Below, piece by piece: positions 22,619 to 45,916 of a DNA stretch of 49,927 nt. The notes under the pieces are model-generated. The model was not told where the DNA came from. It saw nothing but the letters and a program-made list of their open reading frames with translations, and made no database searches. A program made the translations under genes and the position numbers. Origin of the DNA: an uncultured bacterium (GTDB lineage: Bacteria > Bacillota > Clostridia > Oscillospirales > Oscillospiraceae); NCBI GenBank assembly GCA_947073515.1, contig CAMTMC010000016.1:1-49927 (forward strand). The letters run 5' to 3'. Each line of letters begins with the position of its first letter. The first letter of the stretch is position 1.

Positions 22619-23464
22619 ATGAGCGACACCATCATTCAAACAAAAAGCCTCCAGTTCTCCTACCCCGCCGACGACCGGGAGCCCCTGCCCGTGCTGGACG
22701 GGGTGGATCTGGAGATTGAGCAGGGCTCCTTTGTGGCCATCCTGGGCCACAACGGCTGCGGCAAGTCCACTCTGGCCAAGCACTTCAACGCCATCCTGCT
22801 GCCCTCCGGCGGCACGGTGTACGTCAACGGAATGGACACCGGTGACGGGGAGAAGCTGCTGGACATCCGCCGGACGGTGGGCATGGTCTTCCAGAACCCG
22901 GACAACCAGATCGTGGCCAACGTGGTGGAGGAGGACGTGGCCTTCGCCCCGGAGAACCTGGGCGTCCCCCCGGCGGAGATCCGCCAGCGGGTGGACGACG
23001 CCCTGAAGGCCGTGAACATGTACGAGTACCGGGAGCACGCCCCCCACCTGCTCTCCGGCGGCCAGAAGCAGCGGATCGCCATCGCCGGGGTCATCGCCAT
23101 GCAGCCCCGGTGCGTGGTGCTGGACGAGCCCACCGCCATGCTGGACCCCATCGGCCGCCGGGACGTGCTGAACACCATCCAGGCCCTGAACCGGGAGCGG
23201 GGGGTGACGGTGGTTCTCATCACCCACCACATGGACGAGGCCGCCCAGGCCGGCCGGGTCATTGTCATGTCCAAGGGCCGGGTGGTGGCCGACGGCCACC
23301 CCAAGGAGGTGTTCTCCCGGGTGGAGGAGCTGCGGGCGGTGGGGCTCACCGTCCCCCAGACCACCCAGCTGCTGTGGGAGCTGCGCCGGGAGGGCCTGGA
23401 CACGCCCCTGGACGCCCTGTCCGACGAGGAGTGCGCCCAGGCGCTGTACAACCTATTGAAATAG
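22619..23464 (+). CDS. ecfA1: Energy-coupling factor transporter ATPase EcfA1
   Basis: 281 residues, ABC ATPase: Walker A GHNGCGKSTL, Q-loop VFQNPDNQIVANVVEEDVAF (typical of EcfA1), signature LSGGQKQRIAIAGV, Walker B CVVLDEPTAMLDP, and H-loop ITHHMDEA. Together with EcfA2 and EcfT it powers uptake of vitamins or metal ions through exchangeable S components. No S component is in the window, so this is the shared group II module. The stop TAG begins a GGGGCT/AGCCCC hairpin. Confidence 0.96.
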   Translation: MSDTIIQTKSLQFSYPADDREPLPVLDGVDLEIEQGSFVAILGHNGCGKSTLAKHFNAILLPSGGTVYVNGMDTGDGEKLLDIRRTVGMVFQNPDNQIVANVVEEDVAFAPENLGVPPAEIRQRVDDALKAVNMYEYREHAPHLLSGGQKQRIAIAGVIAMQPRCVVLDEPTAMLDPIGRRDVLNTIQALNRERGVTVVLITHHMDEAAQAGRVIVMSKGRVVADGHPKEVFSRVEELRAVGLTVPQTTQLLWELRREGLDTPLDALSDEECAQALYNLLK

Positions 23465-42670: not shown

Positions 42671-43048
42671 TTACTCCTCCTCATATTCCGCCAGCGCCTC
42701 CCGTAAAAATTCCAAATCCTTGTCGTCCAGGGCGTGGAGGCCCGCCGTCTCCTCCAGGTGGTGGGTGAACTCGTGGGCCACGGTGGCGAAGATCTCATCC
42801 TTCCAGACCTCCTCCCCCTCCCCCTCCAGCAGGGCGGAGAAGGAGCCGTAGTACAGCAGGATATACCGGCCCAGATTGTCGTGGACGTACTCCCCCATGA
42901 TGTACATCTCCCCCGGGGGGAAATCCGGGTCGGGGAGGGCCGCCTCCTCCAGCTGGATGCCGCCGTCTAGATCCTCGAAAAAGGCCTCCGGGAACCCTTG
43001 GGCGATCTCCTCCAGCCAGTCGCCCATCTGGTCATAGGTTGGTACCAT
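42671..43048 (-). CDS. Metallopeptidase family protein (zincin)
   Basis: 125 residues with HEFTHHLE, the HExxH zinc site, near residue 88, and PGEMYIMGEYVHDNLGRYIL-type strands before it (IMGEYVHDNLGRYILLYYGS), as in PF06262 zincins. The substrate is unknown. The present start ATG 43048 and its RBS ACGGAGGC lie in the inserted repeat element, only the codons from CCA onward being ancestral. The duplicate of its first 18 codons at 43474-43527 has a different upstream sequence with GTG and GGGGGTGG, probably the original start. Confidence 0.82.
   Translation of the reverse strand: MVPTYDQMGDWLEEIAQGFPEAFFEDLDGGIQLEEAALPDPDFPPGEMYIMGEYVHDNLGRYILLYYGSFSALLEGEGEEVWKDEIFATVAHEFTHHLEETAGLHALDDKDLEFLREALAEYEEE
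42990..43043. repeat. 54-bp direct duplication, gene-side copy (element A)
   Basis: It matches 43474-43527 at 53 of 54 positions (offset 484). It is the 5' end of the zincin gene. The two copies flank element A directly. Confidence 0.95.
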
Positions 43049-43473
43049 AATTGCCTCCGTTTTTTTCGCCGGGCGCGCCGCCCGGGAGTTTCGCCGCTCC
43101 GGCGGCGAGTTTCTTTTCCCCCGTGGGAAAAGAAACCAAAAGGACGCTGGGGGTGTGCTCAGATGGACACTCCGTGTCCATAATCGCCCACCCCCAGACC
43201 CCCGGGGAACGATGTTGATGCGGCCTTGCGCTGGTAGGGGCCGGCAAGATTTGTGTCCGCTCACACCGCCTTTACCCTGGGCCGAAGGGTAGGGGCTACC
43301 GTTCCCCCGCCTCGGTTCCCGACCAGGCTTGGGAAGTAGTTTCACTTGCCAGGATTACTACGACAGGCCGCTCGGGATAGTTTGGGGTTCTATTTTATCT
43401 GCCCGGCCACGGGGGCGGGTGGATCGCCCCGTTTTGGGGTGGCGTGTTGTTCTGTTTTACCCGCTCGGCCACG
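43044..43473 (+). mobile_element. Element A: structured repeat between 54-bp direct duplications
   Basis: The core 43145-43413 aligns almost without gaps to 44630-44361 on the other strand (element B). Structure: a 12-bp hairpin 43109-43136, CCAAA, a long hairpin CTGGGGGTG...CACCCCCAG (43147-43197) enclosing ATGGACAC/GTGTCCAT, then GC-rich paired segments (CTTGC/GCAAG, CCGAAGG/CCTCGG) and GCCCGGCCACGGG near the end. There is no credible protein. Its left end carries an RBS and ATG reading out into the zincin gene. Confidence 0.85.
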
Positions 43474-43527
43474 GGGAACGCTTGGGCGATCTCCTCCAGC
43501 CAGTCGCCCATCTGGTCATAGGTTGGT
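43474..43527. repeat. 54-bp direct duplication, ankyrin-side copy (element A)
   Basis: A copy of the zincin 5' end, preceded on the minus strand by GGGGGTGGTACTGTG just after the ankyrin gene's stop. It is a relic of the original gene start. Confidence 0.95.
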
Positions 43528-43543
43528 GTCACAGTACCACCCC

Positions 43544-44195
43544 CTATTTGATAAATTGGGCAATGGGCCCAACGGCACAGCGCTCCCGGATGGTCTGGTC
43601 AAAGCCGGGCCGGACATAATCCAGATCGGCCCCCTGGGCAAAGAGCAGAGTAAAAATCCGGGACAGGTCGGCCTCCAGCTCCGGGGTCAACAGGCGGTCA
43701 TCCAGCGTCTCTCCCGTCTGCCAGCGGTAAGAAAGGCAGAATTTGCTGGGCATCCAGCACCGCCCGGCACAGGCAGGAATTTTCATAGGAATCTCTGCCA
43801 TGGATGTCCCCGCCCAGGGTGAACATCCGCTCCAGCAGGGCAAAGGCCCGGCCGGCCTCCTCCCGGGTATGGCGCGCTTGAAGTCCCAGCGCTTTATCGT
43901 TGGTGTTCCAGCGGCAGCTCATCACCGCCGCCCGGATGGCGTCGTGAAGGGCGGGCATCCGCCAGGGGTTGCAGCAGTCCGGGGACTCCATAAAATTCAC
44001 GTCCGCCCCACCGTCCAGGAGAATATTGGCGATCTCAAACTGCCCCGATTTAATGGCCACCTGGAGAGGGGACTGCCCATCGTCCTGCTTGGGGGGCTGC
44101 TTGGCGGTACAGGAGACCAGCTCCGGTTTTTTCTCCAAAAGCTCCCGAACTGTCTCAAGCTCTCCCTTTCGGATAGCGACAAACAGCTTTTTCAT
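43544..44195 (-). pseudogene. Ankyrin-repeat protein, frameshifted
   Basis: From ATG 44195 (RBS GGAAGGAAAAG) the frame gives KKLFVAIRKGELETVRELLE, then GQSPLQVAIKSGQFEIANIL and GADVNFMESPDCCNPWRMPA, ankyrin-type helix pairs, up to DAQQILP. There CCTTTC appears to contain one extra T (near 43733-43737). The old frame then stops at 43698, while the next frame continues SYRWQTGETLDDRLLTPELE through FTLLFAQGADLDYVRPGFD to AQFIK and TAG at 43544. The repaired protein would be about 217 residues. It is probably inactive unless slippage on T3 or a sequencing error is involved. It is flanked on both sides by inverted repeat elements. Confidence 0.85.
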
Positions 44196-44219
44196 AGTCT
44201 TTTCCTTCCAAAATTATTG

Positions 44220-44267
44220 CGGCGACAGCTCCGCCTTCCGTCTCGGCAGGGACAGGGGCGGCACCGG
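44220..44267. repeat. 48-bp direct duplication, ankyrin-side copy (element B)
   Basis: It matches 44699-44746 at 47 of 48 positions (offset 479). It is a copy of the 3' end of the U32 peptidase gene, here followed by CAATAA, which would be the original last codon and stop. Confidence 0.95.
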
Positions 44268-44698
44268 GCGGCGGCTAGAGCGGTATCCAGAGGCCCCCCG
44301 TGACCGGGCAGACGAAGTAGGACAACACGCCCCCCGGAGTTCGGCGGTGATCCACCGTCTCCCGTGGCCGGACAAATAGAGTAGAGCATCAAACTATCCC
44401 GGGCGGCCTGTCGTAGCAATCCTGGCAGGTGAAACTACTTCCCAGGCCTGGTCGGAAACCGAGGCGGGGGAACGGTGGCCCCTACCCTTCGGCCCAGGCT
44501 AAAGGCGGTGTGAGCGGAATCAAATCTTGCCGTCCCCTACCAGCGCAAGGCCGCATAAACATCGTCCCCCGGGGGTCTGGGGGTTGGGCGACTATGGACA
44601 CGGAGTGTCCATCTGAGCCAACCCCCAGCGATTCTTTGGCCACTTTCTGATCGTTCAGAAAGTGGCTCGCCCGGCAGGGCGAAACCCCGCCTGTCTCA
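44268..44698 (-). mobile_element. Element B: inverted second copy of the structured repeat
   Basis: It has the same order of features as element A but on the opposite strand: hairpin 44666-44639 (12 bp, different sequence from A but fully paired), CCAAAGAA, long hairpin CTGGGGGTTGG...CCAACCCCCAG (44628-44577) with ATGGACAC/GTGTCCAT inside, then the GC-rich core and GTGGCCGG at its far side. Its end gives TGA, the present stop codon of the U32 gene (44698-44696). Confidence 0.85.
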
Positions 44699-45916
44699 CG
44701 GCGACAGCTCCGCCTTCCGTCTCAGCAGGGACAGGGGCGGCACCGGCCGGGGCAGTCTCATGCGAAAGACCATCTGAGGGCGGCGGACCTCCTCCAGGGG
44801 CTGGCCCTCCGAGTCCCACAGGGCGTCCACGGTCAGGGCCTGGGGCCGGACATCGGGGCCCACCAGCTCCAGCTCCTCCCCCAGGCCGAACTTGTTGTTC
44901 AGGGTGAGGACGGCGTTCCCCGCCCCGTCGCAGGACTTCACCTTGGCCACGATCTGCCAGTCCCGGACATACCGGGCGTCGTCGGTAAACTGCCCCGGCT
45001 GGCCGTAGAAGAAGCCGGTGGAGTAGTGCCGGTGGCTGATGTGCTCCACCTCGTCCCGCCACACCGGGTCCAGGGGCTCCCCGGCGGCGGCGGCGTCAAT
45101 GGCCCGGCGGTAGGCCCCGGTGACGACGGCGGCGTAGTAGGCCGACTTGGCCCGGCCCTCGATTTTCAGGGAATCCACCCCGGCGGCCAGCAGGTCGTCC
45201 ACGTGGTCGATCATGCACATATCCCGGGAGTTCATGATGTAGGTCTCCCCGTTCTCCTCGTAGACCGGGAAGTACTCCCCCGGCCGCTTCTCCTCCATCA
45301 GGGCGTACTGGTAGCGGCAGGGCTGGGCGCAGGCCCCCCGGTTGGAGTCCCGGCCCGTCATGTAGTTGGACAGCAGGCACCGCCCGGAGTAGCTGACGCA
45401 CATGGCCCCGTGGGCGAAGACCTCGATCTCCAGCTCCCTGGGGGCCTTGGCCCGGATCTCCTTGACCTCCTCCAGGGAGAGCTCCCGGGCCAGGATCACC
45501 CGGCTGGCCCCCAGCTCGTGCCAGGCCCGGGCCGACTGGTAGTTGACCACGCTGGCCTGGGTAGAGATATGGCGCTGGACATGGGGGGCGTGCCGCTTGG
45601 CCAGGGCCAGCGTCCCCACGTCGGCCAGGATCACCGCGTCCACCCCCAGCTCCTCCAGGTACTCCAGCCACTCTGGCAGCCGGGCCACCTCCTCGTTCCG
45701 GGGCATGGTGTTGCAGGTGACGTGGACCTTCACCCCCTTGGCCCGGCACAGCCCCACCGCCCGCCTCAGCTCCTCCGGCGAGAAGTTCCCGGCGAAGGAC
45801 CGCATCCCGAAGGCGTTCCCCGCCAGATAGACGGCGTCCGCCCCGTAGGCCAGGGCCATCTCCAGCCGCTCCATGTCCCCGGCGGGGGCCAGCAGCTCCA
45901 TTTTTCTGTGTTCCAT
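44696..45916 (-). CDS. U32 family peptidase (TrhP/YrrO-like tRNA hydroxylation protein)
   Basis: 406 residues. LLAPAGDMERLEMALAYGAD and GNFSPEELRRAV at the start, the U32 signature EVFAHGAMCVSYSGRCLLSN, and Cys residues in RGACAQPCRYQY that may hold an iron-sulfur cluster; a C-terminal beta domain ends the protein. Bacterial members (TrhP, YrrN/YrrO) act in prephenate-dependent hydroxylation of tRNA uridine 34; older annotations call them collagenase-like proteases. RBS AGGAGAG lies 7 nt upstream of the ATG. mltG lies upstream in the same orientation. The stop TGA is contributed by element B; the original C-terminus probably had one more Gln. Confidence 0.93.
   Translation of the reverse strand: MEHRKMELLAPAGDMERLEMALAYGADAVYLAGNAFGMRSFAGNFSPEELRRAVGLCRAKGVKVHVTCNTMPRNEEVARLPEWLEYLEELGVDAVILADVGTLALAKRHAPHVQRHISTQASVVNYQSARAWHELGASRVILARELSLEEVKEIRAKAPRELEIEVFAHGAMCVSYSGRCLLSNYMTGRDSNRGACAQPCRYQYALMEEKRPGEYFPVYEENGETYIMNSRDMCMIDHVDDLLAAGVDSLKIEGRAKSAYYAAVVTGAYRRAIDAAAAGEPLDPVWRDEVEHISHRHYSTGFFYGQPGQFTDDARYVRDWQIVAKVKSCDGAGNAVLTLNNKFGLGEELELVGPDVRPQALTVDALWDSEGQPLEEVRRPQMVFRMRLPRPVPPLSLLRRKAELSP
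44699..44746. repeat. 48-bp direct duplication, gene-side copy (element B)
   Basis: The last 16 sense codons of the U32 gene, duplicated at 44220-44267. Confidence 0.95.

Follow-up and report, generated by a model that had tools for sequence, protein, structure and literature searches.

Duplicated gene edges beside two intergenic repeats in an Oscillospiraceae genome, and an apparently undescribed family of small structured elements at gene ends

Introduction

Among the closest described counterparts of the repeats in the window are the REP, ERIC and RUP intergenic repeats and elements resembling miniature inverted-repeat transposable elements (MITEs), likewise hairpin-rich noncoding mosaics lying between genes. 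The present case comes from contig CAMTMC010000016.1 of assembly GCA_947073515.1, an uncultured member of the Oscillospiraceae, of which a stretch of 49,927 nucleotides (the window) was analysed. In it two related repeats, A and B, lie between the genes of a U32-type peptidase, an ankyrin-repeat protein and a zincin-type metallopeptidase. They belong to a mosaic hairpin-rich intergenic repeat that we name E1, and they differ from the described intergenic repeats in that they adjoin copies, 48-54 bp long, of gene edges. We propose, tentatively and a little short of an even call, that A and B join two alleles of the locus at E1, and that a second repeat, E2, is a putative mobile element homing to gene edges.

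Results and Discussion

Elements A and B in the window

The following features make up the locus.

42671..43048, minus strand: zincin-type metallopeptidase gene, with ATG at 43046-43048 behind GGAGG; the open reading frame (ORF) has a possible earlier start
42990..43043, minus strand: outer copy of the zincin 5' edge, joined to the gene (direct-repeat search)
43044..43473, plus strand: element A (E1 type), inverted relative to B; 43044-43060 are the zincin ribosome-binding site (RBS) and start codon
43187..43428, plus strand: E1 core, left arm of a 242-nt inverted pair whose right arm is 44346-44587
43474..43527, minus strand: inner, detached copy of the zincin 5' edge, 53/54 identical
43544..44195, minus strand: ankyrin-repeat gene with one frameshift (overlapping ORFs 43698-44195 and 43544-43843 in different frames)
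44220..44267, minus strand: inner, detached copy of the U32 3' edge, 47/48 identical, the sole change turning a conserved Leu into Pro
about 44268-44296, minus strand: stub of a repeat module inside element B, the module being also found at L018
44268..44698, minus strand: element B (E1 type, from its sequence and inverted homology to A), including the U32 stop TGA
44699..44746, minus strand: outer copy of the U32 3' edge, joined to the gene (direct-repeat search)
44696..45916, minus strand: U32-type peptidase gene (ORF), its apparently working 3' end being SP followed by TGA, an SP-stop seen in 17/22 relatives

A scan for direct repeats of 30 nt or more, at 90% identity or above and spaced 80-4000 nt apart, listed nine pairs in the 449,927 bases of the genome, window included, among them those at A (42983-43043 and 43467-43527, 95% over 61 nt) and at B (44220-44271 and 44699-44750, 96% over 52 nt). 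A second scan gave 54 nt at 0.981 identity for A and 48 nt at 0.979 for B, in agreement with the lengths and places given by a first-pass annotation made from the sequence. The edge duplications at A and B are not due to chance. Elsewhere in the window, positions 23054-23107 recur 931 nt further on (54 nt, 91%); the repeat is probably coding, a paralogous ATPase motif.

A and B are inverted relative to each other, as first described, and their homology reaches beyond the core of some 270 bp recognised then: 242 nt pair at 90% complementarity (43187-43428 with 44346-44587) and a further 79 nt at 80%, the overall identity being 82.7% over 388 aligned columns. The direct repeats are real, but they do not abut the conserved element at both ends, as direct bracketing would have it. 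About 40 nt holding the zincin RBS and ATG separate the conserved end of A from the outer copy, TGAGACA sits between the U32 gene and the conserved end of B, and the inner side of B can be read as some 30 nt of another repeat module shared with L018, an E1 copy elsewhere in the genome. Short homologies are likewise readable at the inner joints, GGG at A and CCG.TGCCGC at B. The ankyrin gene, taken at first as a member of an operon, is present but broken by its frameshift.

The earlier judgement that a DDE transposase fits poorly holds. Where a DDE transposon or MITE would have a duplication of 2-14 bp and terminal inverted repeats, A and B have duplications of 48-54 bp, and none of the listed inverted-repeat pairs of 16 nt or more joins the two ends of either element. 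An Rfam search of the window returned no match at the gathering threshold, and a tRNA scan of it was empty.

Other copies of E1

Of the five E1 core copies in this genome, A and B are the most closely related to each other. Within the genus (64 genomes) the core has matches in this genome and, as short pieces, in a single second one. The E1 hairpin module has a wider range (18 of 60 genomes searched, this one counted), and some modules of the mosaic also occur in other repeats. An exact 24-nt E1 pattern had no match in viral contigs. Two of the copies, L017 and L018, have E1 interspersed with a third repeat module (AAACCGGAGCCCAGCGCAGCGGG...); a stretch beside this module in L018 is the one met again as the inner stub of B.

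According to the first-pass annotation, A and B were each inserted once into a U32-ankyrin-zincin operon with a target duplication of 48-54 bp. Target-primed synthesis with widely staggered nicks would be one possible way, and on such a model E2 would be a second family spreading by the same route, like a bacterial short interspersed nuclear element (SINE). The annotation had named beforehand the observation that would speak against insertion, namely genomic copies without flanking duplications, and such copies are what was found. The three other cores (L016, L017 and L018), all on contig C12 and situated at argJ-argB, behind uvrA and at L018 (gene names here and below are read from translations), have no flanking duplication, nor does any of 25 E1 match loci, nine from this genome (the three cores included) and 16 from relatives; 12 further match loci, cut by contig ends, were left out. 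The best flank score among the 25 is 19, against 50 at A and 44 at B, and controls shifted by 500 nt score 8-18, with one value of 55 in a tandem-repeat stretch (L027). These flanks do not portray E1 as a transposing element with a target duplication of about 50 bp, and insertion is disfavoured for A and B because the other tested copies lack duplications. An E1 target duplication would also demand that the E1 edges supply by chance an in-frame stop to the U32 gene and an RBS with an in-frame ATG to the zincin gene. For the insertion model speaks, in our own reading, that the inner end of A is the same E1 terminus that adjoins argJ in L016. In kind, moreover, the idea has a counterpart: E2 regularly shows long gene-edge duplications, so that in this group their link with a noncoding element is real.

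A mosaic with shared modules would also suit ordinary local rearrangement, in which the many intergenic hairpin repeats undergo tandem duplication and illegitimate recombination and no element plays a special part. A gene-junction duplication without an element does occur at L202 (11600-11705 and +568), where about 107 bp covering the end of a zinc-ribbon-like ORF, a spacer and the next start are doubled around a paralogous ORF. Against such an origin stand two edge duplications of similar size at both ends of one segment, and the regular layout of E2, which random rearrangement would not be expected to yield; we consider it quite improbable.

The U32-zincin junction in relatives

The zincin gene is present in 52 of 61 genomes of the genus, the named relatives being Oscillospiraceae of the Lawsonibacter, Pseudoflavonifractor and Flintibacter type. 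The U32 gene lies near it in 22 of 29 loci of a first set and directly upstream in 24 of 48 loci of a second, several relatives having a gap of merely 12-19 nt, stop counted. The tight U32-ankyrin-zincin operon, put forward as the ancestral state, finds no counterpart here: an ankyrin match at the junction occurs in 0/29 loci of the first set and 0/52 of the second, and stronger homologues of the ankyrin gene (52-61% identical) are located elsewhere. None of the relatives' loci examined has a gene-edge duplication at this junction, and none of those given has an E2 core there; two (L171 and L118) have a repeated intergenic stretch upstream of the zincin gene. A gap of about 385 bp carries the same small gene in four loci (L051, L053, L068 and L072), and L070 has a different gene there, so that the gap accepts accessory genes.

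At the zincin gene the outer edge has GGAGG at the normal distance and then ATG-GTA-CCA, as in L054 and L063 (G009 and G035); starts of the GTACC/GTGCC type are the commonest (at least 20 of 48), and ACACC is found in at least two. At the U32 gene the outer edge has its stop directly after SP, as have 17 of the 22 relatives showing the U32 end, and the inner copy ends SPQ-TAA, a type resembling L071 and L078. The Pro that replaces Leu in the inner copy occurs at none of the 22 relatives in that stretch. Because the stop, RBS and start of native type lie outside, and the Leu-to-Pro change and the frameshift inside, the outer edges (U32-TGA and GGAGGCAATT-ATG-zincin) look like the native, working gene ends, and the inner copies with the frameshifted ankyrin gene look like a displaced segment.

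A and B may accordingly mark two joints at which the normal U32-zincin neighbourhood meets another, displaced version of itself. The displaced version comprises 48 bp of U32 end, CAATAA, the ankyrin gene, a GTG start and 54 bp from the beginning of the zincin gene. The two versions would be alleles of the locus that were joined at E1 elements via a few bases of homology at the inner joints, E1 itself would have made no 50-bp target duplication, and the inner segment, with its frameshift and Leu-to-Pro change, would be a decaying passenger. We infer two alleles and their joining by short homology because the other E1 copies lack duplications and the inner joints show such homology. The window carries a caution in that edge duplications beside a repeat need not be the target duplications of that repeat.

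An assembly chimera would give a similar picture, the contig merging two co-existing strains, one with the elements and one with the ankyrin gene, and the copies being overlapping contig ends. The assembly is a draft of 65 contigs, the inner joints lie at repeat ends, where contigs break, and the ankyrin gene is frameshifted; yet the window contains no Ns, the copies are inexact and differ at internal positions, and a search of the genome with the inner segment gave no contig with an alternative allele. Gene-edge duplications in the similar layout of E2 are present in genomes of one contig (G011 and G012), which makes a general assembly artefact unlikely, an argument that does not cover the window's own contig. 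We think a chimera improbable.

The E2 family

The scan for close direct repeats exposed two more gene-edge duplications, at the ends of uvrB and argH, each surrounding a related element of about 150 nt, named E2; the same layout was also seen in loci of other species retrieved for other purposes. A sequence search of the genome with one E2 gave eight matches, seven of them beside edge duplications and one (L217) without, the query's own place and one tandem pair being included in this count. An alignment of 12 E2 cores folds with 15 pairs, ten of which have two-sided changes. By the covariance model (R1), 39 of the 64 genomes in the genus contain E2, with 13 matches in this genome, 58 in G027, 41 in G010 and 20 in G008, and across the order in 11 of 117 genomes, this one included. 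None of the 13 matches lies on the window's contig, so A and B are not E2; the model has no match in either element, in the window as a whole or in L016-L021.

Searches of 11 sources with E2 loci against Rfam returned only tRNA at the gathering threshold, and at E<=5 five E2 sources gave four weak hits far below gathering, none of them an intron. Nothing resembling E2 was found in titles and abstract openings of the literature, bioRxiv preprints lying outside this scope. Judged from these literature listings and Rfam, E2 is apparently an undescribed family of small structured elements, and it fits no family tested.

An E2 locus usually starts with the gene body and edge copy 1 (in most cases with its stop), followed by a stretch complementary to the body-edge junction and then by hairpins and the core; a terminal hairpin of the GGGG...CCCC-stem-GGGG kind comes next, and after it edge copy 2 and the neighbour. 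Dozens of genes of gut bacteria in this group show the layout. In 100 loci the duplications measure 33-128 bp (median 73), with a median copy-to-copy spacing of 230. Of 40 loci, 36 have a direct repeat across the core; in three of these (L257, L263 and L268) it is tandem or element-internal, which leaves 33/40 clean. Among 61 further matches 60 have such a repeat, in one case a tandem; both sets are the top ones among the E2 matches listed and hence non-random. Several of the first E2 loci (L203, L204/L212, L026, L030, L042 and L190) were noticed through their duplication, and the less biased sets are the own-genome matches (7/8) and the 33/40 and 60/61 just given. Four loci were dropped before the 100-locus counts, L301 and L313 (same DNA as L250 and L042), L291 (a tandem) and L342 (no duplication), and L217, L215/L216, L257, L259, L260, L262, L263, L268 and L277 never entered them.

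E2 stands at gene 3' tails or, in opposite orientation (antisense), at gene 5' heads, as in lepA, typA and era. Orthologous sites are reused across species, among others in infB, uvrB, leuS, trmFO and lepA, and the cores cluster by host site across species, with a mean identity of 0.776 in 16 same-site pairs versus 0.628 within the same genome. Loci without an edge copy include, by eye, intergenic places near tRNA-like or other RNA genes (L257, L259 and L260).

The junction-complementary stretch is about 9-17 nt long and reaches a score of at least 10 in 76 of 100 E2 loci versus 22 of 1188 cross-locus pairs. It extends across the junction and covers a median of 5 nt of the gene body upstream of it; in a first test, five of ten loci beat all of 200 shuffles each. 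At A and B the best scores lie within the shuffle range, and in this respect too they do not qualify as E2.

In another family, four genomes of one genus (G042, G093, G112 and G157) have at least 35 E2 cores each, some in tandem about 115-215 nt apart, and the few loci viewed from them had no clear gene-edge copies. Among nine order-wide loci viewed, one (L361) has a clear edge duplication and guide, a count that is a lower bound because reversed loci were not turned. At L026 (1115-1500, G011) a tandem E2 with a truncated second unit is followed directly by an E1-type hairpin module. L250 (G000:C59) and L301 (G081:C111) are practically identical DNA in genomes counted as different species, either shared strain DNA or a contaminant contig.

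Evolution of the E2 edge copies

Between copy 1 and copy 2 of 83 tails there are 277 synonymous and 66 non-synonymous codon differences (neutral share 0.236). In 78 of these tails the reading frame of copy 2 stays open as far as the same stop; an earlier set of 39 tail loci gave 156 and 43. Seven head loci (L250, L251, L280, L286, L297, L319 and L339) have 21 synonymous changes and one non-synonymous, with 7/0 and 9/0 at lepA (L250, L339), 3/0 at era (L251) and 1/1 at L297. They were chosen by eye from 19 reverse-strand rows, which together hold 31 and 21; the other 11 rows resemble tails read on the wrong strand. A further head locus, L262, has by eye a decayed copy 2.

When the changes are polarised with single partners, copy 1 has 27 synonymous and one non-synonymous, copy 2 has 23 and one, and 29 are unassigned; with all partners, among which same-site loci are not independent, the figures are 55/6 for copy 1 and 35/18 for copy 2, with 132 unassigned. 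Copy 1 thus evolves as coding sequence, and copy 2, less constrained on the strength of 35/18 versus 55/6, is partly relaxed and yet was coding for much of its divergence. Such a pattern is easier to reconcile with two functional alleles that were joined, or with repeated loss and regain, than with a fresh duplicate of no use. Distances were compared across species to tell homing from vertical descent: that of copy 1 tracks that of the core weakly (partial rho 0.21, p 0.05) and that of copy 2 does not (partial rho 0.08, p 0.48), the pairs being non-independent in both cases.

This divergence bears on insertion with target duplication as well. That A and B equal E2 in geometry and orientation, that the length of the E2 duplications varies between 33 and 128 bp, and that the two copies of one genome often resemble each other more than copies of different species do, all count in favour of such a model. 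Mainly synonymous divergence, however, is hard to obtain from a fresh duplicate with a useless distal copy, the outer edges at A and B bear a native-looking stop, RBS and start, the other tested E1 copies stand without duplications, and RVT_1 has no match in several E2-rich genomes such as G010 (41 E2) and G008 (20 E2), many of these genomes being incomplete drafts. We regard insertion with target duplication as unlikely, though still to be reckoned with.

The 39 tails (156/43) and the 23/1 of copy 2 at first spoke for a self-splicing intron. Edge copy 1 with its stop, the guide and the core would leave the mRNA, and the complementary stretch would align the exon ends. The cover of both junction sides by that stretch (median 5 nt upstream), the open copy 2 in 78/83 tails, the structured core with covariation and the first polarisation of copy 2 agree with it. 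At gene heads, however, E2 is antisense to the gene, and yet the copies there differ almost only synonymously, which makes splicing unlikely. With more outgroups copy 2 (35/18) is clearly less constrained than copy 1 (55/6), Rfam gives no group I or group II match, and the unit is very short. The weight of the antisense heads and of 35/18 leaves an intron very improbable.

Joint interpretation

Taken together with the two-allele joining proposed for A and B, the data on E2 suggest guide-directed homing. E2 stands between a gene body with edge copy 1 and edge copy 2 with the neighbour; pairing of bases at the junction may let it home to such edges in close relatives, and it would bring or make an edge copy with which the host gene goes on working as the resident edge is displaced.

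Several observations weigh against this joint interpretation. The E1 arrangement is known from one locus, so that the two-allele reading is a single case; no strain with either presumed parent allele was found; and the second allele must come from the same species, given the 98% identity of inner and outer copies. The orientation of A and B relative to the gene bodies is that of E2, which independent E2-like insertions would give likewise. On the side of E2, 24 of the 100 loci have no guide scoring 10 or more. Between species, distances at the far end of copy 1 do not follow those of the core (rho 0.05), and a travelling edge copy is therefore not clearly established. In 63 of 90 same-site pairs (two of them the same DNA) the two copies of one genome resemble each other more than copies of different species do, which fresh duplication at each insertion would also explain.

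We also entertain, as a more doubtful extension, that E2 represents a new class of tiny noncoding mobile element, which would pair at gene ends as RNA or DNA, renew or replace its guide to suit each host and escape selection by way of the intact gene end; for E1 elements like A and B, that machinery may serve without a guide. Were E2 such an element, very small noncoding elements would be widespread in bacteria, with up to 58 matches per genome, living in infB, secA, uvrB and leuS and leaving these genes unbroken because the gene edge is doubled. They would offer a novel means of directing short DNA to chosen gene ends and, in genome annotation, a novel cause of duplicated gene ends. The junction-complementary stretch makes the mechanism directly testable.

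Comparison with known systems

Neither of two candidate enzymes for E2, the Y1 transposase (PF01797) and the reverse transcriptase RVT_1, tracks E2 across genomes. Y1 has no match in this genome (13 E2) or in G010 (41), both incomplete drafts, and RVT_1 has none in G010, G008, G061, G020 and other E2 genomes and matches one locus (C14) in this genome.

The retrotransposons of the long and short interspersed nuclear element type, which are target-primed, share with E2 a noncoding structured unit and duplications of variable length; E2 differs in its junction-complementary stretch and in a duplication anchored to gene edges. Integrative elements that enter gene 3' ends and restore the frame have, as E2 does, the gene edge twice with one copy completing the gene, whereas the roughly 230 nt of E2 hold no recombinase and each kind of site has a different edge. 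With the mobile group I and group II introns E2 shares a guide complementary to both sides of the junction and site-specific lineages in orthologous genes. It differs in its very short core, its edge copy with a stop and its antisense position at heads, and the Rfam covariance models place neither the window nor the E2 sources among these introns. In IS200/IS605 elements the guide and the cleavage site pair over about 4 nt. Here, as there, a short stretch beside a terminal hairpin pairs with the insertion junction; in E2 the pairing extends over about 9-17 nt and is accompanied by the duplication of a gene edge.

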